Shown one piece after another: positions 5,293 to 29,723 of a stretch of DNA of 64,000 nucleotides. This DNA is from Membranipora membranacea (Eukaryota > Bryozoa > Gymnolaemata > Cheilostomatida > Membraniporidae). A program made the position numbers and the translations under genes. The DNA lies in contig OU612067.1 in the NCBI GenBank assembly GCA_914767715.1, forward strand, positions 4,526,001-4,590,000, given 5' to 3'. The stretch's first letter is position 1, and every line of letters starts with the position of its first letter. Below the pieces are notes generated by a model that saw nothing but the letters and a program-made list of their open reading frames with translations, did not search any database and was not told the DNA's origin.

Positions 5293-5614
5293 CTGAAAAT
5301 TCTACAAAGGACATAATGCGTCTACCGTGAGAGAAATAAATACAAATTTTTGTTGCAAGACAATGCCAGCCAATGCCAAGTTTTGGAACTACCGCTGCGA
5401 TTTAAAACATATATTAAAATTTCAATGACTTGGACTTTGAAACAATAACACATATCAACATTGCGATGTCAGGGCAGTTAAGCTAGGGAGTTAGGACAAA
5501 ATCCCTGGTCTAGCCAGGGAGAATGGTCTAGCTCACCCGGAGCTGATAAAAAAGGGGGCCACAACTCCAAACTAAATTGGGGAGGAATCTAGATACCAAT
5601 TTTGTCATCATCTG

Positions 5615-7366: not shown

Positions 7367-8357
7367 GCTGTGACCTGTGCTGCAGAAGATCGCTGCTGCT
7401 ATTCTGTATCAAATTCTATAAAATCTATAAAAATATCTGCATCAAAGGGAGATTACTCCGAAAAACACATGCATCATTGCTTTTTGTACCACAGTGAGAT
7501 GTCGTTGCGTCACAGCATTTAATGAGGACACTTTTTGATAGGATATTTACTACACAGTGTCCAGTCTAGTGTTGTGTGTTTTGTCTACGGGCAAAGCAAT
7601 GAAAGGAAGGTAATGACCTTTGCACCTCAATATGTATGTAGTTGGTTAGCCAATCAGGATCACATACCAGACTTCGAAGTAAGTTTTTAGACATTAGTCT
7701 ACATGGACTGTGCTCCATTACAGACACACATATCAGGAGGGGGGGGGGCTGTGAATCAAGGAGGGCCAACTCCAAAATATACAACAATTTAAATCTAAAA
7801 AATCCATTTTGCAAAATGTTAATTTTTTGTCAACACCATAGCTACTACTTTTGTTTATTTACCGATTCGCATTCCATCAAGTCCGTCCATTTCACTTTGT
7901 ACCAGTGAATTGACTTTCTATTTCTGAGTGACTGAACATTCATTTCATATCTGATCTTTTGTATCTGCTTCTCCAAATGTTAGTATAGTCCCAACCAGGA
8001 GAGTGAACAAACTCAACTCAAGGATACTAGTATCTATGTACCAAAGAGAAAATGTCACGAAGTGGTCCATTGCACTATCCACATTTTGCTCGTGAAGCTT
8101 CCTATTTCAACTATGTTAGAGAACAACTATCAGTTTAGGAACACAATACATTCAACCAAACTAACCAAAGCTGTTGTGCAATAATAATCAAACTGAGCTG
8201 ATTTGTCCAAATCACTATTTCACCTAGCATGTCACTGCATCCTACTACAGCTAAGGTGACAGCAAATCACCCATAAGTATTCAGTAAATAATAAACAGAT
8301 ATCCTGATTTAGTAGTAATTCACTTTTATTTCATTGTTGAATTTGTATGACAACAAA

Positions 8358-10478
8358 CTACCAATCTATGGGGCTGGCCGGCTGGGGTCCGCAGTAAGAT
8401 TGCTCTGTTGATGATGCAGGGTGCCAACAGGTTTGGCCGCTTGGGCAGTTCCTACAACAAAAATTAATAATAGTGATCAAGAAATATATTTATTATATAT
8501 CAATCATCATGGTTGTCAGGATCAAGCTTATCATTCAATTCTTTTTTTGTTCAACTCAAGTCTCTAAAACCTGTCATCTCAAATAGTGCATTCAATGAGT
8601 GAAGCGGGTCCTTTTGAGATTGTAGCATCTTAAATTTTGAAGAGAAGCATCATCAAACTCAAATAAAGAATATCTCATATTTCATGAACTGTTAAACAAG
8701 TATTTAAACAATATCTTTAATATTTGAGATCTGACATTTAAGGGTGCAAGATGATTTAAAAAAAATGTGTCCAACAATTTTTAGGCTATGTCTTGCATTT
8801 AAAGTTTTTTATTGTCATTTCTAGCTGTGAATGTTGATAAATATTATAAATTATGATTTGTTTTACTTTCCTTCATGATTTATTAAGTTGACTTTTAATG
8901 CATTGGCACTATTGATTTGAACACAGCTAGGAAGTCAACTTGGTTAAGTTCTGAGCCAAAAAATGTCTGCCAATCATACCTGTCAACATGGGCTAATATT
9001 TTTGAGGGACAAACCAGGCCGGGGGTCCAGGGGGCCGCCTAGGCCAACTGGCGGGGTCTGGGGCAGCGCCCCGGCCGCCGAAGCTTTTGAGCAATTACAA
9101 AGCAAAAAAGACCAAAATCCAGGCATTTTATGCTATTAAGCTTACTCTGAATATAGATACATGGATATGACAGAGAATGTCCCACACAATCGTACAGACA
9201 AATGAGTAAACAGATTCAATAGATATGGCTGTTGTAATGTAATTATTATTTACTGGTCTGTACAGTCTTGGCCATCTCCTTATGTTTCTTGCCAAGTGTG
9301 TGTCTAAACACATCATTAGATCCACCACCAGTTATATTAATGTCACTTTTACAGTAGTAAGTACAATGGGCATAGCCCATCCCCTGCACACTTTTCTTTA
9401 GAAAAGGGTAAGTGGTATTCCATGCATCTAAGTATTTGCATGACCTCTTTGCTTTAGGTTATGGTATTGTCTTTCTTTGATGAGATGAGAAGAATTGGAC
9501 AAAAATGTGCAGAGTGTGAATTTTATATTTCCATAACTAAAGAAAAAACTTGTGAAGAGATTTTACTATTATCAAAATCATTTCTTTAGAAGTGGGACTT
9601 AGCTAGTACAATGAACAGTGAACAGTGAACAGTGAACAGTGAACAGTGAACAGTGAACAGTGAACAGTGAACAGTGAACAGTGAACAGTGAACAGTGAAC
9701 AGTGAACAGTGAACAGTGAACAGTGAACAGTGAACAGTGAACAGTGAACAGTGAACAGTGAACAGTGAACAGTGAACAGTGAACAGTGAACAGTGAACAG
9801 TGAACAGTGAACAGTGAACAGTGAACAGTGAACAGTGAACAGTGAACAGTGAACAGTGAACAGTGAACAGTGAACAGTGAACAGTGAACAGTGAACAATG
9901 AACAATGAACAATGAAGTTCATTGGCTAGTAACCACTCTTATCTTATCTTTTATCACAGTCTCTAACAGATTGAATTAGGGCTACACTACACTTACAAAC
10001 AATAGACATACACATCATAGTAAAACAATGTATCATCAATGTCAAAATAGTGTCATGTCCATTGCTGTTGCCAGGGCAATTGAATAAACATAATAACAGC
10101 TATTCTAACATACATGACCGATTTTTAAGCATACATAAATCATTTCCCTGGACATTTGAGGGACATTAAGTGCTTGAGGGACGATGAGCATAATCCCTGG
10201 ACAATCCCGTGAGATCCGGGACAGTTGACACATATGCTGCCAATAGCCCTGAACTGCGCTGATAAGAATATTGCACAATAACTTACATGACCGATTTACA
10301 TTTGGTTCTACAATCCATTCCAACCACTGCCATCAGAGCAACAATGATGGTGGCAATCTTCATCTGCGGAAAAGTAAGAAAAACTGTCAAAAAGTAACTC
10401 AATAATAACAATCTTTATAAATACAATACAATACAAATAGTTGACGGAAGCACTCACATACATGCCAGTGGTCATCAT
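8358..10478 (-). CDS. Secreted cysteine-rich peptide, copy A (three exons)
   Basis: Three minus-strand exons join in frame: 10458-10478 (seven codons starting ATGATG, donor GTGAGT), 10287-10363 (acceptor CAG, donor GTAAGT) and 8358-8451 (acceptor TTGTAG, stop TAG at 8358-8360). Exon 2 opens with ATG and encodes a signal peptide, MKIATIIVALMAVVG. From that Met the product is 56 residues with Cys at 18, 22, 28, 34 and 46, and a CWHP motif. If exon 1 is translated, seven residues precede it. The last intron is long because a transposon (8975-10236) sits in it. The partner copy is at 27651-28487. The role is unknown; a secreted defence, venom-like or signalling peptide is an inference from size, signal peptide and cysteines only. 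Confidence 0.7.
8975..10236. mobile_element. Non-autonomous DNA transposon, hAT-like, 1262 bp
   Basis: Copy B has the empty site: GTCTGCCAATAGCCC near 28245. In copy A this is split by 1262 bp flanked by the 8-bp direct repeat CTGCCAAT (8967-8974 and 10237-10244). The ends are short inverted repeats (CATACCTGTCAAC on the left, CATATGTGTCAAC read inward from the right). An 8-bp target duplication is typical of hAT-type transposition. No transposase reading frame is visible. A GC-rich block at about 9018-9085 lies near the left end, and the heptamer minisatellite lies inside. Confidence 0.85.
9613..9913. repeat. Heptamer minisatellite (GAACAGT)40 plus (GAACAAT)3
   Basis: Forty uninterrupted GAACAGT units occupy 9613-9892 (280 bp divided by 7), followed by three GAACAAT units to 9913. 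Since 7 is not a multiple of 3, all three minus-strand frames stay open and read as a repeated FTVHCSL, so the reading frames here are not genes. The array lies inside the hAT-like insertion. The perfect units suggest recent expansion. Confidence 0.97.
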
Positions 10479-10706
10479 TTAGAGTTCAAATCAGTGTAGA
10501 CAATAACGTCCATAATAACATGAGGCAGATAGTTTTTGCCTAAAAAATACCTTAATTTTTGTGCTTTCCTGCTTTGGTCTTCAGAGATGAATGTGACAAC
10601 CTTAACTGCACCACTGTTTTATACTGGTCTCATTATGACCTTGTTAGGAGGTTGTGATAAAAAATTATCAGCACTGCTGCAGAGGCCAGGGTTGTATCGG
10701 ATGATG

Positions 10707-11095
10707 CAGTGGCGTATATTTGCAATCATGGCCCACAGATTGCCGTGAATGGTTGAATAGCTCAGTGTGTAGAGCGGCAGCCTAATATTCACTGATAATA
10801 AGATTGTCGTGGGTTCAAATCCCATCTAGGTCAGTTTTTTTTCAAGTGGGTGCTTTATAACTGGAGCATTTTTACCGTAATCTTCTACTGCTATTGAGTT
10901 GTTTTCTGAAAGTACCCAACAGCTCAGTGAGCTATTGAAATACCTCTCTGCTTGCACTATTTTGCTACCGATATGCAAAAATTTCCGTGGTGGGAGGGCA
11001 GTTAAGCGCCCCTCCCACACCCTCCCCGCCCGCCCAATCATTATGCTCATCTCTAAAAAGTCAGTGAGTGAAATTTTTTAGAATATACGCCCCTG
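10707..11095. mobile_element. 389-bp hAT-type MITE
   Basis: Copy B has the uninterrupted site (ATCGGATGATGTACCATG near 28728). In copy A the insert starts CAGTGGCGTATATT and ends with the reverse complement of CAGGGGCGTATATT, giving 14-bp terminal repeats with one mismatch. The flanking 8-mers are GGATGATG (10699-10706) and GAATGATG (11096-11103), an 8-bp target duplication with one change. CAG-type ends and the 8-bp duplication fit hAT. No transposase is encoded, and a tRNA-like segment lies inside. Confidence 0.85.
10751..10833 (+). repeat. tRNA-like segment (SINE head) inside the MITE
   Basis: A pol III A box (TAGCTCAGTGTG, 10758-10769) and B box (GGTTCAAATCC, 10812-10822) are spaced as in a tRNA, followed by a T run. 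The acceptor ends do not pair well and the anticodon arm is irregular, so this is a tRNA-derived repeat rather than a working tRNA gene. Its place inside a DNA transposon suggests either a nested SINE or capture of a tRNA-like sequence by the MITE. Confidence 0.6.
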
Positions 11096-11650
11096 GAATG
11101 ATGTACCATGAATAATTATAAAATGTCCAGGGTAAGGAAAGTCCTTGATCAGATAACAGCAGACTGAAGGCTGTTATCGGAGAGTCAGAACAAACATTCC
11201 TCCAACTGTTTTCTTCTGGTAGGGTGCATAGAGCATCCTTAAAAAGGATATATGCACTTTATTGATCATTTCTGTGGCCTTCACAAATAGGCCACACCAA
11301 TCTATTTGGTCCTTTTAACAACAAATAGTATGTAGGGTCATATCTCATGTATCTTTGCAGCAAATTTCAAATAACTTCCAATTCTGGCACCGTCACTGGT
11401 AAAAACAAAAACTCTACCCTAGTTGTTTGAATGGTAATGGGCCCTTTTGCTCCTCATTACTGGTACTGAGGGCTGCAGATCAGGGCAGGTGACATAACTG
11501 CAGCTTTTCATGGAAATTGTGTTTTGTTAAATTCCAATTCTTTTTACTTGGACGCTAGATCGCTGTCGCAGTCGCTCCGTATATGACTTATCCTAATCCA
11601 GAGATAGAAGTTTACAAAGAGCTTCTCAACTGATGAGAAAATTTCAGACA

Positions 11651-11753
11651 TAACACTGACACATCACAGTGAACGGTTGTTGGGTGGTTTCTACATCCCT
11701 GAAACTCGATTGAGTGTAAGCCTTCAGATAGAAGTACTTTTATAGTGCATCAG
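11651..11753 (+). pseudogene. Broken copy A of the plus-strand exon seen at 29532-29723
   Basis: This segment matches the second half of the open exon at 29532-29723 up to the GTATGT donor. Its first half is gone: about 280 bp are missing relative to copy B, joined at the ATTTCAGACATAA region. Two extra bases (CTTTTATAGTG against CTTTTAGTG) create a stop just before the donor. The copy can therefore not encode the same protein. Confidence 0.55.
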
Positions 11754-12836
11754 GTATGTGTGATGTTGGGTGCACTGTTATAAAGTAAAGGAATTTGCAT
11801 CCTGCTGATCTTGAGCTAAGGTTGCAGATTACACCTATAGATGTACAAGTGTACTGACGCAATGTCAGTTCAGTATTAATTCACTGATATTGTCATGAGG
11901 TAAATTATATCACAAGCAGCATACATTGGAATTGCAGTAAAACGAAAAATCAAAAAGATCAACAAGATTCCATGACAGAGACTGTGAAGAGAAAAACAAA
12001 TTTTGCAGTAACTCAGCAACTATTATTATGTAGTTAAAGTGTTCAGGAGAGCGTAGCATAGCAATTAATTGAATGATATAACTGATTAAAAAATGCAATA
12101 ACCCAGGATCTATAGTATGTCATCTCCGCTGTTACATACTAACACTAGAACATCGTAGACTAGGCTACCTTTGACCAAGAGACTCAAACCTCTAACTCTG
12201 ACTCTAACCTCTTGCTTTGACCATTACTGTTTTGTGATAGTTTCTGATAGTTTATTTAGTGGCCTGGTAACTGTTCTAGGCAAGCTAGGGCTAGGTTTAT
12301 TGTTATTCTGGTGGTGGGTCATCTTTGGACTGTTTATTTGCAGCTGGGGAGATAACATACCTTCTAGACCTAAGGTTTTTGCACTTTTAAATCGGTTACA
12401 TCATTCAATTATGTTCTTGTGTGAGTTAATTTATTTTTATTGTTCATTGCTATGATATTACAGCAATATGAACAGTATGTAGTTGTTTTTTGCTTTCCTA
12501 AAGAGTCGACTACCCTTTGATGTTGCTGATACTTCTCCTTACACCATGTATTTGGCATCCGTCTTAGTCAGGTCAGTCAATTTTTATTCGGTTGAGGCAG
12601 CACGATATTACTCTACACAATCCATTGGCTTGGACATACACAATAATGGCAACGAGGATGGGATATAAAAAATGAACAATGAGAAAGGAGTAGACTCAGT
12701 AAGACAGCAAAGTTGACTTATTAACAGCAAGCAGTAACAGTTTCTCCAGCCTGACATTTGATATATGGTACAAGGAAAGCTCCCAACGAGTTGAGTTTGG
12801 TAGTAAAGTGAGGGTTTTGTTGCCTGATGTAGTGTA

Positions 12837-15179
12837 AGTGTCAGGGTGACAATTCTTAAAGCATACACCTTGATATATTTCTTGAGATTCGTTATCATAC
12901 AGGATGAATACCAGACAGAATTACTGTACTGGAGGAATAGCAAAAAACCGACAATAACAACTTTCTGCGGTGATAGCTCAACCAGAGAAAATGTTTTCAT
13001 CACCATATCTGAGGGTAGTCGCTACCATGATAAAATCATATACAGGGATCTTGGTATTACTAGAATTTTTCGAGAGGTCTAAACCAACGCTTCCAACTTC
13101 ATACAAATAACTATGCTTGATCCATGGAAAAGAAGCTAGGGTGGTGAAAGTTGCTGACGTGTTTGAGCGTGGCAAAAATTCTACGAATTCTACACGAGGT
13201 GATGGTACAATGTATAATCCATAAGTCCATAAATCCATATCCATATCCATATCTAAATCCATAAATCCATAAATCCATAATCTTATAAATATTAATGATT
13301 TTACACTATAGTTAAATTTTAAGGTGTTGGGATTTTATTGTGAAACTAACGTTGAGTTTAAAAGTACACAGAATTATTAACAGCCTATCAGTAGATAGGA
13401 TTTTATTTAGATAAAAACAACACTTAATGGTGTTTTATTACAACTGTAAATTAACCTTGGTTTGCGGAGATTTCTATTTTAGCATCAGCTTAGTATTACA
13501 TCCCTACCTTCTGCTATATGTATGATGACCTGAACGCCAGAGCTATGAACGAGAATCGAAATAATATCATACTACACACCATCACTCCTAGTAAAAGAAG
13601 AAAGAGAATACAATTACCAGTTACCATCAACCTCAGTAACACTTGCACCAGCTGCACCTGAGTGTACAACACTATATCATCAAAGTGAAACCACCTACCA
13701 AAAGACTGTGTCACAGGTACATCAGTGGCACAGCAATACGTATAGACAGCAGTTAGCATTAAGACAGGAAAGCAACAGGACCGTTGTCCTATTCAGCAGT
13801 GTCTTAGATTGTAAAGTGAAATAATTAATTGTATCATATAATATATTATATTGTTGTGTTATTCGGAGTAATATCAGCTTATCTGTGCTATCAGTGTTTA
13901 AATCAGCTTTCATCTGACATTCTATATACCCAAGGATACGAGTGCAGAGACGGTCAGGTCAGAATATTTAGAACACCTTTTAATATTTTTAACCTTATAT
14001 AAATATTTTATACGTGTATTTTGTCTCAATTGAATTAAATGGTCAGGGTAATTAAATAAATAATCTGATACTAAACAAATTAGGTTTATGCCTGTCTGGT
14101 TGACACAAATAATTGGTAATCTCAGCCACTTGACTCTTTAGTAGTCACAATTGTGTATTCAAAGGCTATCCAAAACCTCACGCACTTGTAGACGGCCTTG
14201 TCGGCACTTTCATGTACTAGATCATAAACAGATATCAAAAGCTGCAATATATATAACTTGTGATGATTTAAATAGACTGTGTATTATAATAAGCTTGAAT
14301 TAAATTTAAGTTAAAACTTGTGACGACGTCTAGCGCATTGAGCTCATGTGGAGTAGATAAACAGTGCGTGTATTAAATTTTTGTCAGGAGATTAATTGAT
14401 ATCGTTCATTGATGACCATCAGAATTTATCGGAACAGTGTAGTATTGTGTATCAGCCTATCGTAGATCAGTGTATCGCTTATCAGTGTATCTTTGAGACC
14501 CTTCTGTGGGTTATATAATGATTTCATAATTCAAGCGAAGGCTCTCAGTGCTAAACTAAATAGAACCCAAAACAAAATAGAAAAGCCCACTCGCTCATCA
14601 GAGTAGACTCGGAGCAAGCTAACTACACCTTGTTGTGTACACGGCCCAGTCCGTTTCTCACATGGAGGTCCGACCGAGACGCTAACACTTGATTCTTAAT
14701 CCCGCATTGAACACGGATTAAAATTCATACCCCTATAAAATTCATTGATATCCCACAATAATTTAGCAATTCATTTTAAGAAAAGTTCTTAACGTATTTA
14801 GCTTAAAGTAGCATCCTATAAACTCTCTGCGCCGGTTTTATTTACCTATTATAAAGTGAATATTTGGATTATATAATAAGTCAATAATCAGTGTATTATT
14901 GATAACGATCATAGGTCAGTCATTAAACTTATTTAAATCTTCACAGCACATTATAATCTGTCATACATACTGTTTTAACCCCAGCTGTATTGTGTTTAAC
15001 CCTTGAAGGCATTCATATCGCTTTTGTGGCTAATCATAAATTCTATTTACAGCTATCGCATTCAATCTTACCCAAGTCATTGTACCCGATTATATCGTAT
15101 CTAAATTTATTGTTACCCCTGTTTCAACATTCATCCATCGTATTCAGGCCGACAAAGTCAAGCTAAGGTTAGTTTGAGT
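12837..15179. other. Region between copy A and the gag reading frames
   Basis: No supported gene is visible here. A short simple repeat built on TCCATA units lies at 13218-13285. The part from about 14500 to 15179 may be the leader of the gag element that follows, but I could not identify a long terminal repeat or a convincing tRNA primer-binding site, and I found no direct repeat of this stretch downstream of 18875. Confidence 0.4.
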
Positions 15180-18100
15180 ATGTCTGCTCTTCGTAGCACT
15201 TTCAATTCAATGGGACGTTTGTTCGTTTCCCCTTCCTCTTCTCATAAGACAAAGAAGGAAAAAGAGAGGTCCAAAGAGCTGAAAGCCCTAGACCATTGGG
15301 GTAAAGATGACCTTTCAGAAACAACAATGATAGGTGGCAAATCTTTAAGATCTCGTAAGTCTAAAGAAAAGTCATCCACACTGTCTGATTCTGCCCCTCA
15401 ATCCGCTCCGTTCAATCAAGAGATTGATACAACACTAAGAGCTGCAACAGCCAGTAACGAGTTTGAATTTGACGTCACAAATCCTTTTAGGACAGAATTG
15501 ACCTCGACCTCGCTATCACACCAAGAAGATCAAGATACAATTCAAACTCAGTCTGCTAGTAATGAAACTCTAGCACCCAAGACCCCACCGACCGAGCCAT
15601 CCTTAACAGATGCACAAGCTAGTGGTGCAATCCCAAAGAGATATGAAACCAACCTTCCACCCCATCCTATACCTGACAGAAAAGTTCAGTTTGATCTATC
15701 AAAACAAACCAACACAAGAAAACCCTCGTTAGCTCCAAAACCACCTACACCCCCAACACTAAAACTTCCAAAACCTCCAACTCCCCCACCCATGCAGCAG
15801 AATACACTAATAGAAAACATGACAACCCCACTACAAACTATTTTGAAGTCGCAGACAAGGATTAGATCGAACCCACTTGATGAGGAACAATTAGATGGCT
15901 GTTTTGATACAGAGGTGAAACCAATCAATAAATCTATTCATTTTGAAAAGAATCTTGAAGAAGAAGACCAATTATTAATGGAAACCCCCGTCCCCGCTTC
16001 AAAAAACATTCTAACCCCAACTCACCTAATCTCTCACATCGAACCCAACCCACATCACAGAATCCAAAGTCCTGCTCAGGATGAATTCTTTACCCCAGCT
16101 GCTGAACTCCCAACATTCACTCGAAGATCCCGACCATCCTCACATAGGTCAACTCCTCATGCTACTGGATATAACAGGGAATCCAAGTGTTTCAACAGAA
16201 GCATCATCGTGAAGCGCCTTCAGCTCGGCCCCCAGTACAATCGTCGGCATACAATAGACCGAGGGAATTTTCCCAACATGCCAGGGTAAACTTTCCTAGC
16301 TCAGAGGGCCATGTTTACAATAATTACCTCGAAGGTGAGGTGGACATGGATGCTCAAAGTGACGCAGGTGAATTTTCATCTGGGCAACCTCTGCATCATA
16401 GTTCAGGGGACCATTTACCCCCACATACTCAATCCAATGTGTTCAATGGCCCCCATTGGATGCAAAGGAGTAATCACAGTGAGACTTATGGTAATGAGAA
16501 TAAAAGTGTACCCGCACTACAAGGCGGCCATGGTGAATTTCCACCACTAGCCGCCCATAGCGCAGGAAATCAACACTATAATTCACACAACCATGTACAA
16601 CCTCAACTTGGCTCAGCACCTACTAACCCACAAATGCCCAACGATTTTGGACAAGGCAATAGAGAGCGCCTCTCTGGGTCAAAAAGTGACTTCGTTACAC
16701 TGAGCGATAATAGTAGAAGTCGAGATGGTGAGAGACATCAGAGATCAAAATTAAACACCTCTCGAAGGCCGCAACCAGGCGATAATAGTCCTGATGATGA
16801 TGGAGATGACAGCGATGATAGTCGTCATAACAATAAACATCGAAAGGATAGGAGAGTCTTAGATAATTTGAGCTCCGTGATCAACCTAACCACTTTTCAT
16901 GGACGCACCCCTGAACTCGAAAAGTTCACGAACACATACCTGGACAAAACCAACTTCACGGAGTTTATTGACCAGTTTGACCTTCATTGCCTGGGGTTAG
17001 GCATCCCAAGACAAAACCTGGCCCGCCTCCTGCCAATGTATTTCTCAGATGGTGCCCTTTTGGTCTACAAAAAGGTTATTGATAAGGCAGCAGAGCTAGC
17101 GGATGATTATCCTAAGCTGGTTTTTGCTCTGAAAGCCAAGTTCGGCAAAAAGAGTGGAGTGCCCGCCAATGAATTGGCAAACATAACAAAGAGGCCGGAT
17201 CAAACAAAATGCTCTTTTTATAATAAGGTCAAAACTCTGGCCCAACAAGTCTACCCTAATATTAGTAGAGAGGCCCTCAATGCGATTATCAAGACACATT
17301 TCATCGGAGGTCTCGATGAGGCAACACAGATATATTTTATGGACCGAGAGGACCCTGTTACCGCCCATGACGCCTACCTGATGGCTGAAAGAAGGGAAAA
17401 ACTCTAGAAAGATAGTACGGACAAAAGGAAGAGGAAATATTTGTGCCATAAACCTAGAAGAACAACTAAACAGCATCCAAACACAACAAGCCCCTGCCCA
17501 AGAAGATTTGAACCGTCATTCATACACCAATCAAACCCCAGTATATTCTAACCAAGGAAACAGGCCAAACAAACCAAGGTATAACTATCAGAATCAAGGT
17601 TTCAAGGGAAATCAAGGCCATCCAGCACAAAGCATGCCACCCAATCAGGTCAGAAATGACCAATACAACCCAAACTATCACCCAGTTATCAAAACTATCG
17701 CCAAGGTAATCAAAACTTTCACCAAGGTAATCAAAACTACAACCAACACTTCCAGGGCAATAGCAATAACTCAAACTCTTACAGAAATAACAATGGCAGC
17801 CGAAATTGGAGAAATGATAATAACTACAACAATTTTTCCATGTACGGCCCCCAGCCAAACCACCAATACAATTACAACCATCAGGAAAATGGAATGAGAG
17901 GCACCATAGATATGCCCTGGAGAAGACGATTCACATCAGACGGACGTCCAATCTGTGATTATTGTGGGATCGAGACTCATATAGAGTTCAAATGTCAGCA
18001 AAAACGCAGAGATCAGCAGCAAGCCACTGTCCACCCTAGGCCAACATCTCCAGTACCAAGGAAAGTAGAATATGAAGAGTATACTGGAATGATAGGGACT

Positions 18101-18874
18101 ATTTTCCCGTCATCTGCTTTCCCTGAAAAGAAGATAGAAACCCATGGACATCTACAGGAGAAAAAGGTGGTGGAAAGTTTTTGTGTAAAAACAGAAAGTG
18201 ACAGTGAAAAGAGCTCAGAGATCAGGTGTTTTCTCAAACCAGTGAGAATGATGCCCTCATCTTTCATAGCACTTATGACTTTCATTCTGTTAGTAGGCAG
18301 TAATATGGCTGCCGCAGCAAACCCTATTTTTGGCCCATTCTCTCATAGACAAGGAACCAAGTCACATCTGCTACTATCCCTTCCTGGACCCCAGCCTCGT
18401 TTCCAGTTTAAAGCACAGACAAATAGTGCAGTACTGCCAAGCAATCTGCGATATGATGGTATGCAAGCCCTTACTGAACAAAGTCACTGCTATTTATGGT
18501 GTAAATCTGACCAAGAAGCAACTGCCAGGGAAAAGAAGTCCATGCATGACAATGCCCTAAAAAATATTGTGAATTCTTCACACGATAGCATGAACAGCTC
18601 AACAGACCAACAGCTCAATCACATAGCAAACAGGAAACTCGCCGTTTGTGAATCCAGGCGTAATCTGCTCAGCACATTGAATAACCTGTGCATCAAAACA
18701 AGTGTTGCCGGAGGTCCGGTTATCTTAGTACGATCTTATTTGGTTCTTGAAGTTGAGAAAAGTGCCAATCAAGCTCAGTCTTCATGCAGTGATCACATCG
18801 CAATTTCATTCATGTTTCAGGGAACAGCAATGCTTTCCATGCCCAAAGATACCAAGGCATTAGCAGCAATATAG
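15180..18874 (+). pseudogene. Decayed gag-bearing retroelement with env-like tail and no visible pol
   Basis: Reading frames with retrotransposon gag character follow one another but lie in alternating frames. They run from ATG 15180 to 16289 (Pro/Ser/Thr-rich), about 16187-17407 (capsid-like domain, with conserved-looking hydrophobic and DxF motifs near 16900-17390), about 17400-17690 (Asn/Gln-rich) and about 17700-18874. The last frame has a CCHC zinc knuckle of the form CX2CX4HX4C at 17954-17995. It continues into a hydrophobic signal-like segment (about 18265-18315) and a Cys-containing tail that resembles a secreted or envelope-type region. No protease, reverse transcriptase or integrase is seen between knuckle and tail. 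The three frame breaks (16187-16289, about 17395, about 17690) mark it as inactive or as a frameshift-bearing assembly. The TTG six bases upstream is not the likely start. Confidence 0.7.
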
Positions 18875-20300
18875 ATTGGCTGCCAATGCTTCTTTTATTT
18901 TACCTGAATCAATTATTTTATTCACATTAAATATTTTATAAATATTACATATTACCACAGGGCTTGCTTCGATAACAGAATTTTATTGTTATCAATACAG
19001 AGAGCTACTGGTAAATTTAATATAGTATCTTTTTTATTTTTCCTAAAAATGTCATTGTAATGATAGGCATGATACATTTTCATCAAAACAAAATGCAAAG
19101 AAACTGTCTAGCTACAGTTTGGATGCATAGTATTGATGGTCCAACATGTTTTTTTAAGTACGTAATAATAATAATCAAGGATAATATCGATCCTAAGATT
19201 GACGGTAAACATGATGACCTGTCATCAAAGTGCAAAGAAACTGTCCCGCTACAGTTTGGATGCATTGTAATGATGATCCAACATGTTTTATTTTAATTAT
19301 AGTAAAAATGAATTGTTTAGTGATAAATCAATCCTAAGATTGAGGTGAACGGGTAACCTATCATCAAGATGCTCAGAAACTGTCTAGCTACAGTTTGGAA
19401 GCATTGTAATGATGGTTAAACACGTAATACTTACAATTGACAATAGGAGTCATGAACAGCATACTGCCTGTTTTGTTTGTCATTATTTTATTTACTGTTA
19501 TTCTTACCTTTGTGTCTAGTGTCTACAGACACATCAATTATCCTGATAAAGGGAACTCCTATTAGATCCCTGCTGCACAATGATCAATGCTGCCTCTACA
19601 CCCTAGGCCTATCGACCTTTCTACCATCTAATAAGTCAGCACATTATCTGTGCACTTTGTATTCTATGCATTAGTATATTAAAGAGCTATTTTCCATGAA
19701 TTTTAATATGAAAACCTGTGTTATAAAATGGGTTGCAAATCAGTGGATGTACTCCAAACTTAACTGCAAACAGGTTAATTCTAATAGCTTTTGAGTTATT
19801 TAAGATTGAATAATTCTTTGCATGTTATAGTTCACTGGTGACTAAGTTTATAAATCAATCATTACTCAAAAGGTTTACTCCTTTTATTTATAAAACTATA
19901 TTTATCAAATCATCTGTTCTTCGCCGCCAAAATCTTTCTTTCTTTTCTAAACTGCGGACCTACTGTCAAGCTTCACCATAGTCTTTTGTAACAATCAATC
20001 CTGCAATCAATTATGACATGTGACAGTGTGCTTTTACATAGGTCATAAATTAGCCTATCCAATGAGGTTATAATTTGTGGAATCAGTGGGCAGGATTTCG
20101 GTGAGGTGAAGTGAAGCGCACTTGTCTCATCCCCTGCCTCCTTTAGATGTTTCGCATAGTTTTGTATGTATTGTGGACAGAGTACATAATATTGTTGCCA
20201 TCATTAATCATGGGGCAGCGTACTCCACACTAAAGATTGTCTAAAAGTTTTGACTTACGATTTCCTCCCCAAACAAATATCACAAGAATATATGGCCAAT
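18875..20300. other. AT-rich flank between the gag element and copy B
   Basis: No gene is supported here. The stretch contains the three-unit tandem repeat at 19068-19440, which is annotated separately. Short open stretches near 19477-19674 have no visible splice structure or domain. I found no long terminal repeat matching the 5' side of the gag frames. Confidence 0.4.
19068..19440. repeat. Three diverged tandem units of about 138 bp with an internal hairpin
   Basis: The string AAACTGTC...ACAGTTTGG, followed by ATGCAT or GCATTGTAATGATG, occurs at about 19098, 19239 and 19376, giving a period of 137-141 bp. Each unit has the inverted repeat AAACTGT/ACAGTTT around a 6-base loop, then a shared ATCCTAAGATTGA block (in units 2 and 3) and TCATCAAG. 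It lies just 3' of the gag/env-like frames and may be part of that element. Confidence 0.7.
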
Positions 20301-20601
20301 ACTCTGGCTGTCTGTGATAGGGCCCGGTTGTTCCCACTTCTGAGTATCATTGTTTTACAACAAGAATTGTCAAATTTATGAACAACTTGTTATCGTGAAT
20401 TTTTTTAGGAGGGTTCAGTTGAGATTCACCGTCCATTCACATCAGTAGGAGCCCTACTAGATAATCTAAAATTTCACAAACAGAAACGACTGTAACATAA
20501 ATTGGTCAGTTGACGCTAGCACGGTTAAGTAATTGGACAATCATATTCACTCAGCCATCTCAACAAAGTTGAGCCGTGATCACAAACTAATGGTGATGGC
20601 A

Positions 20602-20830
20602 GCAGTAGAGTTTTGGTACTGGATGAGTAGAGGCGCTGGTCTGAAGAGTGAGGACATCTTTCACATCTTCTGTCTTGGTTATGCATTTTATGTAGGCTCT
20701 CTCATTCCGCCTCACTTTGTCAAATATGCATTGGTCCATACAACAAACATCCATAATGATGTGGCCAAGTGTGAAATCTCCCACAGAGACACTCTTCTTT
20801 GACTGGCCTTGAAACATAGACTGGAGGCTA
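20602..20830 (-). other. Conserved open segment shared by copies B and C
   Basis: After a TTTATAG acceptor-like site at about 20831, a minus-strand frame is open and reads MFQGQSKK...GDFTLGHIIMDVCC onward. Copy C (34339-34569) keeps the same frame for about 55 residues. A 7-bp difference (GAAGAGTGAGG against GAGG) then puts the two copies in different frames. I do not recognise the product, and it may be a non-coding repeat that happens to be open. Confidence 0.25.
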
Positions 20831-22739
20831 TAAAAGGAAGAACATTACATAGGGACGCAATCAAAAGATGCAGTATTATTGACTGAAATTTAATTGTGTT
20901 TGTACGATGAAATGCTTGTGACAACTCATAACTCTTCTAGGGTATTCATTCAAAGCTCATTAGGCGCTGATCCATCATGTCACCAAAATGAAGACGCTAT
21001 GACTTGGTAGTACAATTAACTGGTCAAGGCGAGCTCACATTTAAACCATCATCAACTTCTCCAGATGGCAGTGGAGATGCTACCTTTTCATATCATTAAA
21101 GCATAAAAACTTGATCAAACACAATGAAATTCGATGTGAGGAAGGGTGGTGTCTTGAAATAAACAGCTAAATTTCTTTTGCAAAAAAATTCCATATATAT
21201 ATATATATTAAGTTATTATATTAAATATATAATTGTTTTGTATTACAATAACATTTAAAATATAGCTGTTATTCTGAATTTCTTTTCTGTTATCAATATT
21301 TGCAGGTTGGGTTTATATAATATTCAAAATTCAGAACTGGATTATTATTATTTCTCTTAATTTTAATGATAAATTTATTATATTATATGATATAATAAAT
21401 ATCAAATTATATTTGCAGTCAATTTTTGTCTCATTAAGTGGGTCAGCCTGATCCGCCTATTTAATTCCGCTCATTTTGTTTCTATCTTAATTTCCCTGGC
21501 TGCCAGACCAAAAAGTGTGATCTTCTCCAATGTATGCTTATAAAAAAGAGTGCAAATTTATGGTCTCATCTGTTCAGCGCCCCCTATAATGAGGGACAAC
21601 TCCTGACACAGCCCCATAAAAACGAACGACTCGGCAATCTATCGCTGCCTAAAGTAGCTAGCCTCCTGCCTTCTAACTTCAATGGCCACTTCATCACTTG
21701 AGAATGACCATCCTCTATAATCACACATAATGCCTTCATTGCAACATGATAAGCCAAGATAGGATGGCTTTTTAGGAAATGACAATTGACAAACTTTAAA
21801 CTTCAAACTTCAAATAGTATGTGATATTCTGCATCACCTTCATCGAATCAGAATACTTGATAGGTAGGATTTTATAATCATTTGAATGCTGATGTTAGGA
21901 TGAGAAAATGCAAATAAACCAAGCTCAAATCATTTTAAATAAGAGAAACTAAATGTTAGACAGCATTGTTTTTTGATTAAGACCATGTCCGCCATAAAAT
22001 CATAGACAGTAATATACAGGTAGCTGGCCTTTCTCAATGACATGTGTGATTGACTCCTGTATTGAGTAAACAATCGCAGAACTAGGCTTTTTATCATAAA
22101 TTCAAATTATAAGGATATTGTCACGAGGCTTTTCAAACGTTTGCAATGTATCGTTTGTGAGGCCTTAGGAGCATAGTTGATAATGGTTTCGAAAATCAAC
22201 AGAATGTAGCATGTGACTTTGCACCATGTGATAGAATTTATTTATAACAGGACCCTAACTGCACTGTGTTCACTAGAGTGGCGGAAATTCTTTATTTGTT
22301 TGACGGGAATCATTAATATAGATCGTAAGGGAGTAAAGTTAAACTAAATCAGTCTTCAAACCAAAAAACCAGCCTCTGAAGGCAACAAGCTTCAATCGAA
22401 CAATAAATGCAAACAAACTGCGGTAGTTTTTTGATACCTTGCAGCTCCAGCTCAACCAGTTGAAGTTAATGGACATTATTGGCTTACTATAGCTGCGCAG
22501 TGCTGTATAAACTCTTTATTCACAGGGGTCAACAAAAAACATATGTTTTTTCCACAGCGGGACTTGCTTCTGTACTCATTTGTATCAAAATGGTAAAAAA
22601 TGTGTTGGCTTCTCATGGTATGAACTGAGAAAGCTCTAAAAGGTTAGATTCTAGACTGAGTTATAGAAAGTTTTGTTCTCATTAAAATTTGTAAATAATA
22701 ACCAATAACTGCTGAATGCTGAATTTCTTTATATAAGGA

Positions 22740-23010
22740 GTAGGAGGTAGCTCAGTTGGTTAGAGCGCCGGTCCTTCAACACATAAGTGATGAAGGTCAT
22801 GGGTTCAAATCCCACTGCAGTCTATTGACTACTCGGGTTTGGTTGACCCCCAGGTGTGCCCCCAGGTGTGCTCCGACCTGCCTGCAAACTGAGAGCAAAC
22901 TGGAGCGGAAATTGCGGCCTTGCCATTAAGGCAAAATAATATTTCCCCGCCCAGTTTCGCGATGTGGTGTGTGATATGACATCCGATTTTAATCAACCTT
23001 TAATCTTCAA
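22740..23010 (+). repeat. tRNA-derived SINE (copy B)
   Basis: The head has a pol III A box (TAGCTCAGTTGG, 22748-22759) and B box (GGTTCAAATCC, 22802-22812). The body reads CCGACCTGCCTGCAAACTGAG and GGCAAAATAATATTTC, and the tail is AATCAACCTTTAATC. The same family occurs at 37167-37435, duplicated together with its flanks, and on the minus strand at 47119-47376 as an independent insertion. The body and tail show that these are SINEs and not tRNA genes. Confidence 0.9.
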
Positions 23011-23517
23011 TCATAATTTTAATATATAGGATCCAGAACTAACAAGGAAATATGTAATTTGAACCAATTTTATCAGCAACATGGTCGAGGGTGAAGGCTA
23101 TGCAGGAGTTGCCCTTCCACTAACCATGTTGGCAAAACCCCTAACCCCTAAATAAATGTGCATGAATTAAGACATGGATAATCTCAAGTGATTGAATAAC
23201 AGAATCTATTGGTTTGATAAGGTCTATGGCTAGAAGCCTGGAAACAAGAATATATGTATTTAACGCCTTTAAACATTATGCATACTAAGGAGGTGAATCA
23301 CATGAAAACAAAGTTATCAAAATTTAATTGAATTGAGCAATAAAAACAAAGTTTTTGATCCTTATAAAAACTTATTATATGGAAGCTGCAAACAATAAAT
23401 AAGGTAATAATGTTGAAGTTTATATCCTGATGAATGAGCAAGGATATGGTGCGATGTCTGTTCTGTTATTGATGTTGGTGAAGAGAGGCAGCCAGTCTTG
23501 ACCACAATTGGAGGTAG

Positions 23518-23635
23518 TTAATCCCATTGGGTTTGTCTCTGTTTCCGTCTCCATCTCCAGATATTAAATAGTATTACTAATATGATGACAATAGGGAAAA
23601 ATATCCCAGAAACTACCACGACTATCTTTCCTCCA
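23518..23635 (-). CDS. Terminal exon of a single-pass membrane protein (copy B)
   Basis: After a TTTGCAG acceptor, this minus-strand exon encodes a strongly hydrophobic segment, IVVVVSGIFFPIVIILVILF, followed by a basic stop-transfer tail (NIWRWRRKQRQTQ) and TAA at 23518-23520. This is the usual end of a type I membrane protein with a short cytoplasmic tail. Copy C has the same exon at 37947-38064 with three amino-acid changes and no frame break. The preceding exons would lie at higher coordinates; I could not identify them, so the ectodomain is unknown. It may be a remnant. Confidence 0.45.
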
Positions 23636-24825
23636 CTGCAAACAAGATAAATAAGCTACATATAAATATGATATTTAGTTTGCTTAAATATTGTGGATAC
23701 TATAATTTTGTAAAAAGATACATTCAATGGGATGAGTAAAGGCTGGTTTTGAAACACAATAAAAGCTCACCGATAAAACTATATCTAATCTAACACTGCT
23801 GGTTTTGCCTACAAATCAGGGCATGCTGAATATACTGTTTTATTCGCAGGCAGATGGTACTCAGAGTGCTCATTGTCTAGAAGATTTAAGTTAGGTCAAA
23901 TGAGCAAGAAGTCATAAAAGGTTATCACTACAGTTTAATATCCTTACTCATAGTTAATATCCAATTTCAACCCTCCCAACCAGTGAACTTATTATCAATT
24001 ACACAACCAATAACTTTATTTTAATTTATACAATTTCCACTCGACATACGCTGGGGGTGGTACTGAACCCTGGTTACTGATTACTTCCCTCTATATGTAA
24101 GAGCCGTCAAACAGGCCTGAGTATGAAGAGGCACATCCTTACTCTGTGATATAGAGAGGGCTCATGGATTGGAGTAGTTTAAGTGCTTAAACTGGGTGAG
24201 GAAAGTGGTTGATAATGAAACGCTACTACTAGCTACCCCGGCACAGTTTGAGAGCTTAAACTAGGATTAGAGTGGTGACGTCACTCGGTGAAGTCGTTTT
24301 CCGGCTTATATTAGCAGCAGCAACTGTTCATTTTTTTTAAATTGTTGTATAATTAAGCCTTTAATCTCTGGGGCCAATAGTGCTTCAGAGGAAAGACCAC
24401 AAACATCAGTACAGTGCTCAGTTTGTGGTTTTAATCATGAGACAATCAATAAAACCTCAGTAATTACAGTTCTCATCCTTAATTTCACCAATAATCTCGT
24501 GTTTAGTACCGTTGAGCCTTGACAACCCCTTATACTATCAATTTTCTGAGAGAACATGGTCATGCAGCTTACTGAGCCAACCATAGCTCATCTAGCAAGA
24601 ACATCAAGACATATACAGTCTGGGTGTATGATGCGAGTACAAAAACCGCTGTGAAGCAGTTCGCTATACCAATGAAATCCCTCTCCCTCATTGGCTATAC
24701 GCATAATGCTGCACTATTCAAATAAAGAGAATAAAATGGACGTAAACAAACACCCGGAGCTGATAAAAAAAGGGGCCACAACTCCAAACTAAATTGGGGA
24801 GGAATCTAGATACCAATTTTGTCAT

Positions 24826-26660
24826 CATCTGCCACTAGGAAAGGCTAAAAACGCATATCTGACACATTTGTCTATATTCTGTTTTACTCATCACTTATTT
24901 TGATTGAGCAAAAAATACATAGAAATATTAGTTAAACAGTGATTGTAAATATAATCCTGATACCTAGTACCCATTGGAGCCTAAATCATGGTACTGAACA
25001 TTTTGAAAATGAATGTACCTGCGCGCTACACTGTCTCATCTCGAAGGCGATGATAACATATATAGCTATTTGCACTTGGAATCAAATCGAGCAACGTTTT
25101 TTTTAGGAATATCCAAGGGCAAGGTTATCCATTAAATACAATGATTTGAAGAATCGTTTGACATAATGCCTTAAAAAAAAAAATTTGGTATGTATTCTTT
25201 ATTTTATAAGACAACTGCTGATCACTGGGTCACAAAAACCCTGCTGAAATATACCATAATACATAAGTAGTGGTTTAATTCTCATCAGTATATAATATCA
25301 TCAAAGACTTTCTCCCAACCCCCTCAAAGCTCTCTATTTTGTATTGTTGGAAGAATGTCATCTTCCCATATTATGCTCCAATTGTTTCATGGGATAATTT
25401 TCAGGTTTTGTTGTAAAGGATTTGATCTGCTAAAATTCTATAATAGATGTTAGGTAATAATCATTAGCCACGAATTCTACATTTCCTAAAACATGACTGA
25501 GAACAGGGTCACAATCACCTTGCAGCAATATCCAATAATGCATTGTGGTTTGGTTCTCATCAGTATTATAATAGGATTTAGGATTTTCTTCTGATCCCCT
25601 TCAGAAATTCCAATCTAGAATTGCATTGTGGGAATCCATCTTTCACCATACAATTTTACAAGATCATCTTGTGCGTTGGACTAGTTTATGCATCAGTTTA
25701 ATTAAGCCAAGTATGTTTGAATGACCCCGACTGTCTTGATAAACTTGTTGAACCACCCACCCCACAACAAAGCTTGCGATAACAGGCTAGACCACCACAT
25801 GCTATTTGTTACAAGCAAAAATATAATTTGTATGGTTGGTATATGCCTGTATTGATATCCCTAAGTGTATCAGGCTGGCTGCTCATTATTAGTTCTTATT
25901 ACACATATTTTTTTAAGGTGATTACATTCTTAGAAGTCAAAAAACTAAACTGCTCTGAGTGTGCAGACTTTTTAAGTGCAACTAGTGATCCCTCAGCAGC
26001 GGACTGCTCTCTATTCGGCCGCAAGAATCGGGAGGCCTCAAACCAAGGAGTGCTCAACTCACTAACCCAGTTGTAGATACAAATTTCTATGCAGCAGAAA
26101 GGGCAGTCCAACACTCTATTGGTACCGTAGTGCTTGCGCCAAATTTGACTAATATGGTTGTCACCCGTACATTATCATACGTATTACTTTAAATGTGCAT
26201 CCCACTGTACTTCACTCTTTAAAACTCTTTTTCTGCGGTATGCTCTGATTCCCAGCCATCACACAATAACAAAGCTAGCCTTAGAAAAACGATGCTCGGT
26301 TTGATTCCAAGTGCAAATAGCTATATATGTTATCATGGCCTTCGAGATAAAATTATTTGGGATCAAATATGCGTTTTTAGCCTTTCCTAGTGGCTAGAAA
26401 CGCTCTCAGAGCATCAGCGACCGGGTTCTATCCCTGACCCGGTTGGGGGATCACAATGCCCTCAAACCCCCATGTGGATCGCTCGGGTATTTCGCACCCT
26501 CGGATCATTGCGATGACGTGCGGTATCACTGTAAATTGAAATCTCCCACTTTTGAATTTAGATTACTTGGCAAGTATGATATGCTGTTTAACTAATAGTT
26601 CTATGCCATTTTTGCTTTATCGAAATATGTGATGAGTTAGACAGAATATAGACAAAGCTG
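24826..26660. repeat. Foldback region (copy B)
   Basis: This matches 5615-7366 of copy A, with the same inverted blocks (GCCACTAGGAAAGGC near 24830, its complement near 26365-26395). Copy B has about 70 extra bases at about 26443-26520, rich in CCC/GGG, that copy A lacks. The reading frames at 25828-26114 match those at 6626-6897 and show no domain. Confidence 0.6.
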
Positions 26661-27650
26661 TGACCTGTGCTGCAGAAGATCGCTGCTGCTATTCTGTATC
26701 AAATTCTATAAAATCTATAAAAATATCTGCATCAAAGGGAGATTACTCCGAAAAACACATGCATCATTGTTTTTTGTACCACAGTGAGATGTCGTTGCGT
26801 CACAGTATTTAATGAGGACACTTTTTGATTGGATATTTACTACACAGTGTCCAGTCTAGTGTTGTGTGTTTTGTCTATGGGTAAAGCAATGAAAGGAAGG
26901 TAGGTAATGACCTTTGCACCTCAATATGTATGTAGTTGGTTAGCCAATCAGGATCACATACCAGACTTCAAAGTAAATTTTTAGACATTAGTCTACATGG
27001 ACTGTGCTCCATCACAGACACGCATATCAGGAGGGGGGGGGCTGTGAATCAAGGAGGGCCAACTCCAAAATATACAACAATTTAAATCTAAAAAATCCGT
27101 TTTGCAAAATGTTAATTTTTTGTCAACACCATAGCTACTACTTTTGTTTATTTACCGATTCGCATTCCATCAAGTCCGTCCATTTCACTTTGTACCAGTG
27201 AATTGACTTTCTATTTCTGAGTGACTGAACATTCATTTCATATCTGATCTTTTGTATCTGCTTCTCCAAATGTTAGTATAGTCCCAACCAGGAGAGTGAA
27301 CAAACTCAACTCAAGGAAACGAGTATCTATGCACCAAAGAGAAAATGTCACGAAGTGGTCCATTGCACTATCCACATTTTGCTCGTAAAGCTTCTTATTT
27401 CAACTATGTTAGAGAACAACTATCAGTTTAGGAACACAATACATTCAACCAAACTAACCAAAGCTGTTGTGCAATAATAATCAAACTGAGCTGATTTGTC
27501 CAAACCACTATTTCACCTAGCATGTCACTGCATCCTACTACAGCTAAGGTGACAGCAAATCACCCATAAGTATTCAGTAAATAATAAACAGATATCCTGA
27601 TTTAGTAGTAATTCACTTTTATTTCATTGTTGAATTTGTATGACAACAAA

Positions 27651-28487
27651 CTACCACTTGGGCATGGGTCCGCAGTAAGATTGCTCTGTTGATGTTGCAG
27701 GGTGCCAACAGGCTTGGCCGCGTTGGCAATCCCTACAACAAAATAAATATTAGTGATCAAGAAATATATTTATATATATCAATCATCATGGTTTTCAGGA
27801 TCAAGCTTATCATTCAATTCATTTTTTGTTCAACTCAAGTCTCTAAAACCTGTATTCTCAAATAGTGCATTCAATGAGTGAAGGGGGTCCTTTTGAGATT
27901 GTAGCATCTTAAATTTTGAAGAGAAGCATCATCAAACTCAAATAAAGAATATCTCATATTTCATAAACTGTTAAACAAGTATTTAAATAATATCTTTAAT
28001 ATTTGAGATCTGACATTTAAGGATGCAAGATGATTTTAAAAAAAATGTGTCCAACAATTTTTAGGCTATGTCTTGCATTTAAAGTTTTTTATTGTCATTT
28101 CTAGCTGTGAATGTTGATAAATATTATAAATTATGATTTGTTTTACTTTCCTTCATGATTTATTAAGTTGACTTTTAATGCATTGGCACTATTGATTTGA
28201 ACACAGCTAGGAAGTCAACTTGGTTAAGTTCTGAGCCAAAAAATGTCTGCCAATAGCCCTGAACTGCGCTGATAAGAATATTTGCACAATAACTTACATG
28301 ATCGATTCACATTTGGTTTTACAATCCATTCCAACCACTGCCATCAGAGCAACAATGATGGTGGCAATCTTCATCTGCGGAAAAGTAAGAAAAACTGTCA
28401 AAAAAGTAACTCAATAACAATCTTTATAAATACAATACAATACAAATAGTTGACGGAAGCACTCACATACATGCCAGCGGTCATCAT
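27651..28487 (-). CDS. Secreted cysteine-rich peptide, copy B (three exons)
   Basis: The structure is the same as in copy A, without the transposon in the last intron. Exons are 28467-28487, 28298-28374 and 27651-27732 (stop TAG at 27651-27653), with donors GTGAGT and GTAAGT and acceptors CCGCAG and TTGTAG. From the exon 2 Met the product is 52 residues, with the same 18-residue start and Cys at 18, 22, 28, 34 and 46. The C-terminus is shorter than in copy A. Relative to A the mature part has K19, E23, I25, D27, Q29, R30, A33 and T39. Splice sites, phases and stop are all intact, so both copies may be expressed. Function is unknown. Confidence 0.72.
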
Positions 28488-29531
28488 TTAAAGTTCAAAT
28501 CAGTGAAGACAATAACGACCATAATAACATGAGGCAGATAGTTTTTGCCTAAAAAAATACCTTAACTTTAGAGAGAATACAGCTTTTCAGAGTGCTTTCC
28601 TGCTTTGGTCTTCAGAGATGAATGTGACAACCTTAACTGCACCACTGTTTTATACTGGTCTCATTATGACCTTGTTAGGAGGTTGTGATAAAAAATTATC
28701 AGCACTGCTGCAGAGGCCAGGGTTGTATCGGATGATGTACCATGAATAATTATAAAACGTCCAGGGTAAGGAAAGTCCTTGATCAGATAACAGCAGACTG
28801 AAGGCTGTTATCGGAGAGTCAGAACAAACATTCCTCCAACTGTTTTCTTCTGGTAGGGTGCATAGAGCATCCTTAAAAAGGATATATGCACTTTATTGAT
28901 CATTTCTGTGGCCTTCACAAATAGGCCACACCAATCTATTTGGTCCTTTTAACTGCAAATAGTATGTAGGGTCATATCTCATGTATCTTTGCAGCAAATT
29001 TCAAATAACTTCCAATTCTGGCACCGTCACTGGTAAAAACAAAAACTCTACCCTAGTTGTTTGAATGGTAATGGGCCATTTTGCTCCTCATTACTGGTAC
29101 TGAGGGCTGCAGATCAGGGCAGGTGACATAACTGCAGCTTTTCATGGAAATTGAGTTTTGTTAAATTCCAATTCTTTTTACTTGGACGCTAGATTTTGCT
29201 ATTCTCATGTTTTATATGTAGAATTACCTCCTCAGGAAGACATTTGACGTTCATGATAAATGTGCAGTCGCTCCGTATATGACTTATCCTAATCCAGAGA
29301 TAGAAGTTGACAAAGAGCTTCTCAACCGATGAGAAAATTTCAGACATAAGGACTCTAAGCTGTAGACAGCTATTTCTTGGCCATAAGATACTGAAATGTT
29401 TCATATTTTGCCAGGGGCTATCTCACAATCTAAAGTCAACCAGAACAGGTTTGTTCTTGTAGCATATTGTCAAGCAACAATAATACTGTATTTAGCTTCA
29501 ATCTTACAAATGAGTTGATATTTGATTATAG

Positions 29532-29723
29532 AATATTATTCTGCACATGGTAAATGCAATCATCAAGTGGTTTGAAGTGTCTCACAATGTACAAGGCCAT
29601 GGTCACTTTGCCAACATGAATATAACACTGACACATCACAGTGAACGGTTGTTGGGTGGTTTCTACATCCCTGAAACTCGATTGAGTGTAAGCCTTCAGA
29701 TAGAAGTACTTTTAGTGCATCAG
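29532..29723 (+). CDS. Candidate internal exon of an unrecognised gene
   Basis: Between a TTATAG acceptor and a CAG|GTATGT donor, 64 codons are open in phase 0 on the plus strand (contains WFEVSHNVQGHGHF and NMNITLTHHSERLLGGFY). An upstream stretch at 29222-29332, after TATGTAG, is open for 36 codons and could be related, but it ends in a stop without a donor. The matching segments in copy A (11651-11753) and inverted copy D (about 32060-32215) are interrupted. I recognise no family; a gene fragment carried by the duplication is the likeliest reading. Confidence 0.3.

Follow-up and report, generated by a model that had tools for sequence, protein, structure and literature searches.

A 64,000-nucleotide stretch of the Membranipora membranacea genome (hereafter the window; contig OU612067.1, here C3, positions 4526001-4590000) carries two intact genes, copies A and B, for a short cysteine-rich peptide that is predicted to be secreted. 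They belong to a small family in which recent copies hardly differ outside the few codons of the released peptide, a pattern as in venom and defence peptides. The gene anatomy in the sequence, the family, its duplication and the confinement of change to the mature codons are established. The best explanation is probably that strong diversifying selection acts on secreted peptides with an outward role, that paralogs have exchanged some segments, and that selection rather than mutation is the driver. C3 is 35.04 Mb long, in an assembly of 339 Mb and 18 contigs.

Copies A and B were read on both strands of the window and then aligned. This re-reading confirmed that they are intact where the sequence-only reading had placed them: both lie on the minus strand with a TATA box, GT-AG introns, an open spliced frame and an AATAAA signal ∼30 nucleotides (nt) past the stop (Table 1). 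Exons 2 and 3, spliced, give an open frame of 56 residues in A (MKIATIIVALMAVVGMDCRTKCKSVMNCPSGQTCWHPASSTEQSYCGPQPASPIDW, translated from the exon 2 ATG) and of 52 residues in B (MKIATIIVALMAVVGMDCKTKCESIMDCQRGQACWHPATSTEQSYCGPMPKW, translated likewise). Translation of the putative exon 1 would contribute seven further residues, but its coding role is uncertain because exon 2 itself opens with an ATG. The promoter block is free of substitutions between A and B across ∼122 nt. A third copy, C, is an inverted relic in which, by eye, the TATA motif is not kept, the exon 1 donor has gone from GT to AT and the exon 2 ATG has become TTG; no exon 3 was recognised in it. It was considered as an outgroup for A and B and rejected as too degenerate. 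Copy A also contains a stretch of intron 2 that B lacks, and within it, at window positions 9608-9916, an array of the 7-mer ACAGTGA (44 copies, 99% matching). Some 390 nt upstream of A (10707-11097) are absent upstream of B; this insertion looks like a recent short interspersed nuclear element (SINE) and includes, by eye, a tRNA-like stretch, which the tRNA scan did not call.

A recount of exon 2 and the alignable part of exon 3 agreed with the nine substitutions reported from the sequence alone, eight of them changing an amino acid and one silent, and the alignment likewise left the first 18 codons (exon 2) free of substitutions and all five cysteines conserved. That count stands for exons 2 and 3 and leaves out exon 1 (21 nt), where one substitution exchanges Ala and Thr. 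The C-terminal tails, already noted to be unequal in length, differ by five more substitutions in 15 aligned nt and by 12 nt in length; with the tails, mature divergence is 14/107. The introns are indeed more alike than the mature codons (10/644, or 1.6%, versus 9/92, or 9.8%; Fisher p=1.6e-4), and the non-exonic sequence of the whole duplicon gives a similar contrast (97/5425, or 1.8%; p=5.8e-5), which puts the mature part at about 5-fold the non-coding divergence. The ratio of non-silent to silent change (dN/dS) nominally exceeds 1 (pN 0.113, pS 0.053), although there is a single silent change and the comparison of non-silent (N) with silent (S) sites gives a Fisher p of 0.39. The outcome named beforehand as speaking against the proposal, introns as diverged as the mature exons combined with a dN/dS no higher than 1, was not observed.

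Further copies were looked for in the animal's own genome, and the family was found in two clusters on C3, at 4.53-4.56 and 30.25-30.40 Mb. Match counts in these searches are lower bounds: B gave 6 matches as DNA and 7 as protein, while the DNA of D1, a gene of the second cluster, gave 15 when most of its intron 1 was removed. Ten of these 15 are family pieces on C3, and the remaining 5 are short matches on C2 and C5 that fall within intron 2. A search with the whole D1 gene gave 92 matches (40 of 1161 candidates scored) in which a repeat in intron 1 was dominant. This repeat (L009 ∼6822-7172) is an interspersed-repeat copy with many relatives on several contigs, 75-78% alike and often flanked by a shorter opposite-strand match in a foldback-like arrangement. 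The second cluster is itself duplicated as repeats of ∼58 kb, 116-121 kb apart, that are 92-99% identical over most pieces and more diverged at the end. This end (C3:30285400-30289700, or reg 55.4-59.7 kb, where reg coordinates count from C3:30230001) differs from its repeat by ∼10-30% per 100 nt as measured to reg 57.8 kb, and the later pieces are 77-85% identical; most of the rest is 1-4% diverged. The diverged end has either another origin or is an older copy. The two family clusters lie nearly equidistant from opposite ends of C3, a layout that a large inversion might leave.

The most extreme divergence was found between D1 (MKITTIVVVAIMAVAGMTFAKECSTILDCPWPEVCLHPASSREQSYCKKLDY) and D2 (MKITTIVVVAIMAVAGMNAVKECSSYRDCRFPKFCMVTETSGDKAYCVLIIP), which come from a duplication separate from that of A and B and ∼26 Mb distant. 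Their signal peptides are identical and all four cysteines are kept. In exon 2, substitutions number 0/48 in the signal part and 8/32 in the mature part, and exon 3 has 30/80. The 60-nt stretch that ends at the last cysteine accounts for 16 of these 30, and the tail, which is not aligned with certainty, for the other 14. Nearby sequence has hardly changed: intron 2 differs at 14/684 positions, the 3' untranslated region at 2/93, upstream sequence plus intron 1 at 1/564, and the 10.3-kb block as a whole, exons excluded, at 124/10125 (1.2%). The mature rate is thus ∼22-fold the non-exonic rate to the last cysteine and ∼28-fold with the tail included. Up to the last cysteine there are 23 non-silent changes over 68.8 N sites and 1 silent change over 21.2 S sites (one-sided p=0.006), and pooling with A/B gives 31 N and 2 S changes (p=0.008); where a residue is kept, its codon is nearly always the same as well. 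The excess of non-silent change, which puts dN/dS of the mature part above 1, is therefore significant in D1/D2 and in the pooled data, and not in A/B alone. A conserved signal and cysteine frame around a mature part more diverged than introns and flanks is found in two separate pairs. The interpretation first offered for A and B is supported, and considerably strengthened by D1/D2, as regards the conserved frame and the accelerated mature part, while its reference to defence and venom peptides is one of analogy.

A scan of 60,402 aligned nt from 22 duplicated blocks of both clusters, in 60-nt windows, was used to rank local divergence; the diverged tract of the second duplication, from reg 55.4 kb on, was set aside. 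Exon 3 of D came out on top with 25/60, unmatched by any other; the runner-up (reg 55044-55103, at the edge of the diverged end) had 9/60, and A/B exon 3, D exon 2 and reg 3042-3118 had 8/60 each. Chance was rejected for D exon 3, which far exceeds every other window once the diverged tract is left aside. For A/B, chance is rejected because of the comparison with introns and flanks and not because of rank in the scan. Homogenisation of the introns as the sole cause was also rejected, since the flanks match the introns in similarity over kilobases.

These data suggest the following scheme. A, B, D1 and D2 would be functional genes of a small family arranged in clusters, encoding short secreted precursors from which a mature peptide is released outside the cell, there to act on something that changes or varies. 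Its targets would most likely be microbes, foulers, predators or parasites, and less likely a partner in mate or self recognition. New copies would arise by segmental duplication; afterwards, strong diversifying selection would replace the residues between the cysteines, so that loops change and the frame stays, and ectopic recombination may swap some segments and tails of exon 3 among paralogs. Expression, secretion and disulfide formation are inferred for the family. The precursors have a predicted signal peptide of ∼16-17 residues (mean Kyte-Doolittle value of the best 12 residues in the hydrophobic N-terminus, 2.9-3.0) and a predicted mature peptide of 35-40 residues. All four share the core C-x5-C-x5-C-x11-C (5-5-11), to which A and B add an N-terminal cysteine (3-5-5-11), and signal residues and cysteine positions are identical within each pair. 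Two disulfides per peptide seem likely, with the fifth cysteine of A and B perhaps serving to form dimers. Computed mature charge runs from -1.6 to +0.7 and the pI from 5.5 to 7.9. Such a near-neutral to acidic charge makes a classic membrane-active antimicrobial peptide less likely, while antifouling, defence directed at ion channels or enzymes, and recognition would be compatible with it. By analogy with known systems, a role in defence or antifouling is plausible, if not quite probable, and other recognition roles are not very likely.

The rate of change in the mature exons relative to background (∼22-fold to the last cysteine and ∼28-fold with the tail in D1/D2) is large enough to raise the question of a mutational hotspot or targeted hypermutation, and the D1/D2 changes are rich in transversions (19/25 versus 64/124 outside, p=0.03). 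This explanation is nevertheless very improbable. The D duplication contains its own controls: the orphan exon 3 pair E1/E2 differs at 1/80 positions, the relic exon 3 beside D at 0/63 and relic F at 9/1317. Because sequence of the exon 3 class changes at the background rate when it stands outside a recognisable gene, a sequence-intrinsic hotspot is disfavoured. Silent changes also fall below the expectation for a blind process (2/33 pooled, p=0.013), and the transversion excess is lost on pooling (p=0.10, not significant), with 3/9 transversions and 6 transitions in A/B. It is also unlikely that gene conversion copied exon pieces whole from diverged paralogs, in place of point changes selected singly, although signs of exchange are seen in exon 3. 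In its second half A, B, E1 and D1 are nearly alike (1-3/33 differ, with D1 at 1-2/33 from E, A and B) and D2 stands apart (9-10/33); the D2 tail and a 10-nt stretch past its stop recur in the neighbouring units U1 and U2, and D exon 3 is followed, ∼80 nt downstream, by a second relic exon 3. Given the mosaic exon 3 of D1 and the D2 tail in U1/U2, part of the D1/D2 difference is probably paralog-derived. The search of the assembly for a donor of most of D2 exon 3 used 88 nt and matched only itself, but it also missed D1 exon 3, and therefore an equally distant donor would escape it. Conversion tracts would in addition have to end at exon edges twice, as the two mature exons ∼0.7 kb apart both changed around an intron with 14/684 differences, and old donors should have brought silent changes, of which D1/D2 has one against 23 non-silent. 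With E as outgroup (by eye), the A/B changes fall on both lineages, which also counts against conversion. Something beyond exchange was probably at work, because exon 2 changed too, with the intervening intron left alone, and the 88-nt search found no donor.

The pairs could instead be alleles of hypervariable loci under balancing selection that were assembled side by side, which we regard as improbable. Divergence of the duplicated blocks is ∼1-4% in both clusters, a level comparable to the heterozygosity of some marine invertebrates. On the other hand, the units in the window are mosaic (the A/B blocks, block 20302-24752 doubled at 34077, and the inverted relic C), D1 and D2 are ∼116 kb apart, and the ∼61 kb between the D repeats has no listed match of at least 600 nt to them. 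The mosaic units and the spaced D repeats therefore amount to more than a simple haplotype repeat. A bolder proposal, which we consider unlikely, is that expressed copies have nearly all of their mature codons rewritten, while their surroundings change by ∼1%, through a process targeted to these codons or tolerated only there. This might be repeated short-segment replacement from donors mostly absent from the assembly (other haplotypes), or the pairs might be balanced, hyperdiverse alleles of recognition ligands. If it were true, this would be a natural system in which a venom-type exon segment switch could be seen beside an unselected copy of the same exon.

Several points weigh against diversifying selection on outward-acting peptides, the explanation we prefer. 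For A/B alone, dN does not significantly exceed dS (p=0.39), and A/B exon 3 ranks high in the scan without being unique, tying with one non-family window and being topped by another. The A/B duplicon also holds a second cluster of substitutions, 9/92 near 24930-25022, in which no gene was recognised; because this non-genic cluster shares the duplicon, clustering alone is not decisive for A/B. As the 88-nt search of the assembly, with its short reach, gave no donor for most of D2 exon 3, exchange as seen accounts for only part of the change. A/B or D1/D2 could be alleles set in tandem by the assembly. The mature charge, near zero or negative, is unlike that of the usual cationic antimicrobial peptides. 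No homologue, nor even a candidate, was found for A or for A and B aligned (A+B) among 5.8 billion proteins by a word-based search, which requires shared 5-residue words, so that short diverged relatives can escape it, and A, B, D1 and D2 match no Pfam family above its cut-off.

The nearest Pfam signals were Lustrin_cystein (PF14625, cut-off 27 bits), to which A scored 17.4 bits (E=0.0055) with none for B, D1, D2 or E1 exon 3, and late nodulin (PF07127, cut-off 30.4 bits), to which D1 scored 14.1 bits (E=0.062) with none for D2, A, B or E1 exon 3. No relative was found among solved structures for B, the sole query. A knottin or similar cysteine pattern had been suggested as a check; the six cysteines in three disulfides of a knottin are not present, D1 and D2 having four cysteines and A and B five. 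Nor is the Mytilus CRP-I array C(X3-6)C(X1-7)CC(X3-4)C(X3-5)C found in a single last exon. By sequence, this family belongs to none of the known families tested. The literature on such a pattern or on relatives yielded analogues only, which is no proof that the family is unpublished.

Four such analogues are compared here. The conotoxin superfamilies of cone snails have a conserved signal. Like conotoxins, the present genes combine a conserved signal with a diverging cysteine-framed mature part, several short exons and duplication. Conotoxin mature exons are reported to exceed the divergence of their non-coding flanks by a factor of ∼three (PMC10561478, citing Phuong and Mahardika 2018), whereas the factor here is ∼5 for A/B and ∼22-28 for D1/D2; in addition, no separate propeptide was recognised in our genes, and two exons share the mature part. 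The word-based protein search with A and A+B, which can miss short relatives, gave no sequence homologue here either. Mytilus CRP-I peptides have a conserved signal, a hypervariable cysteine-rich mature part and positive selection, and three of their four clusters lie megabases apart on one chromosome with pseudogenes among the genes (PMC10138031). The likeness is that of a marine invertebrate with clusters megabases apart on one chromosome and relics among the genes. CRP-I differs in its six cysteines with an adjacent CC and in a mature peptide encoded in the last exon, while A, B, D1 and D2 have 4-5 cysteines, no CC and a mature part spread over two exons. In the process called ASSET (accelerated segment switch in exons), short exon segments of snake venom proteins are replaced while cysteines and introns stay alike, by a mechanism that its authors describe as not yet understood (PMC2711939). 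Proteins and animals are different there, and here a duplicated orphan exon provides an internal control. Among sponge peptides, barrettides, asteropsins and stryphnines are short and disulfide-bonded; a signal peptide is present in stryphnines, which like barrettides are reported to act against fouling, and barrettides have two disulfides (PMC13418204). The likeness to these short disulfide peptides is one of description. Barrettides are marked by four cysteines, with disulfides I-IV and II-III in a beta-hairpin; D1 and D2 match this cysteine count and A and B do not, and the knottins among the sponge peptides differ in having six cysteines.

Fast-evolving secreted peptides mark the contacts of an animal with enemies, symbionts, prey and mates, and they are a source of new bioactive scaffolds. 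D1/D2 is an unusually clean case, as hyperdiverged coding exons and non-coding copies changing at the background rate occur in one duplication. With this internal control, selection, hypermutation and exchange should be separable using reads from a few individuals.

Table 1. Members, relics and duplicated units of the peptide family. Plain positions refer to the window; those with the prefix C3 refer to the contig.
Feature	Position	Strand	Remarks
Copy A exon 3	8358..8451	-	later mature part, three of five Cys; stop 8358-8360
Copy A exon 2	10287..10363	-	starts ATGAAG; encodes signal peptide and start of mature part, with two Cys
Copy A putative exon 1	10458..10478	-	ATGATGACCACTGGCATGTAT, then GTGAGT donor
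Copy A TATA box TATAAAA	10617..10623	-	by eye
Copy A poly-A signal AATAAA	8325..8330	-	by eye
Copy B exon 3	27651..27732	-	stop 27651-27653
Copy B exon 2	28298..28374	-	
Copy B putative exon 1	28467..28487	-	one Ala/Thr difference from A
Copy B TATA box TATAAAA	28648..28654	-	by eye
Copy B poly-A signal AATAAA	27618..27623	-	by eye
Copy C, relic of exons 1-2, degenerate and inverted	33282..33500	+	
Duplicon with copy A	5534..12838	.	aligned parts ∼98-99% identical to B duplicon, insertions apart
Duplicon with copy B	24751..30808	.	
Further duplicated block	20302..24752	.	aligned parts 98-99% identical to 34077-39178
Second copy of block 20302-24752	34077..39178	.	starts shortly past relic C
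∼1.26-kb intron 2 stretch in A, not in B	8975..10236	.	includes ACAGTGA array
D1	exon 2 C3:30257264-30257343; exon 3 from 30258029		
D2	exon 2 C3:30373726-30373805; exon 3 from 30374491		
E1, E2			orphan exon 3, one per repeat; exon 2 not found nearby
F1, F2			gene relics; promoter and intron pieces recognised, exons 2 and 3 not recognised
U1, U2			upstream 2.3-kb units; only exon 3 end and some upstream sequence recognised

Scans of the window for bacterial promoters and for tRNAs were uninformative on the peptide gene, and the Rfam scan gave 0 matches. The one tRNA call (47286-47382, without an assigned amino acid) overlaps a repeat at 47121-47382 that recurs at 22736-23001 and 37161-37416 and is perhaps a SINE. 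Overlapping long frames occupy 15105-18874, one of them with a weak Retrotrans_gag match below the cut-off (E=0.007). The frame at 52788-53210 has a weak match, also below the cut-off, to the PSMD12/CSN4 N-terminal domain, and we take it to resemble an exon of COP9 subunit 4. A gene for a small Maf bZIP transcription factor at 62259-62639 marks the window as part of an animal genome; among the 120 of 328 protein matches listed, molluscs, echinoderms and other animals showed 48-60% identity and others 69-89%. Finally, the 9-mer TATTAGTTA is repeated in 36 copies, 97% matching, at 59748-60073.

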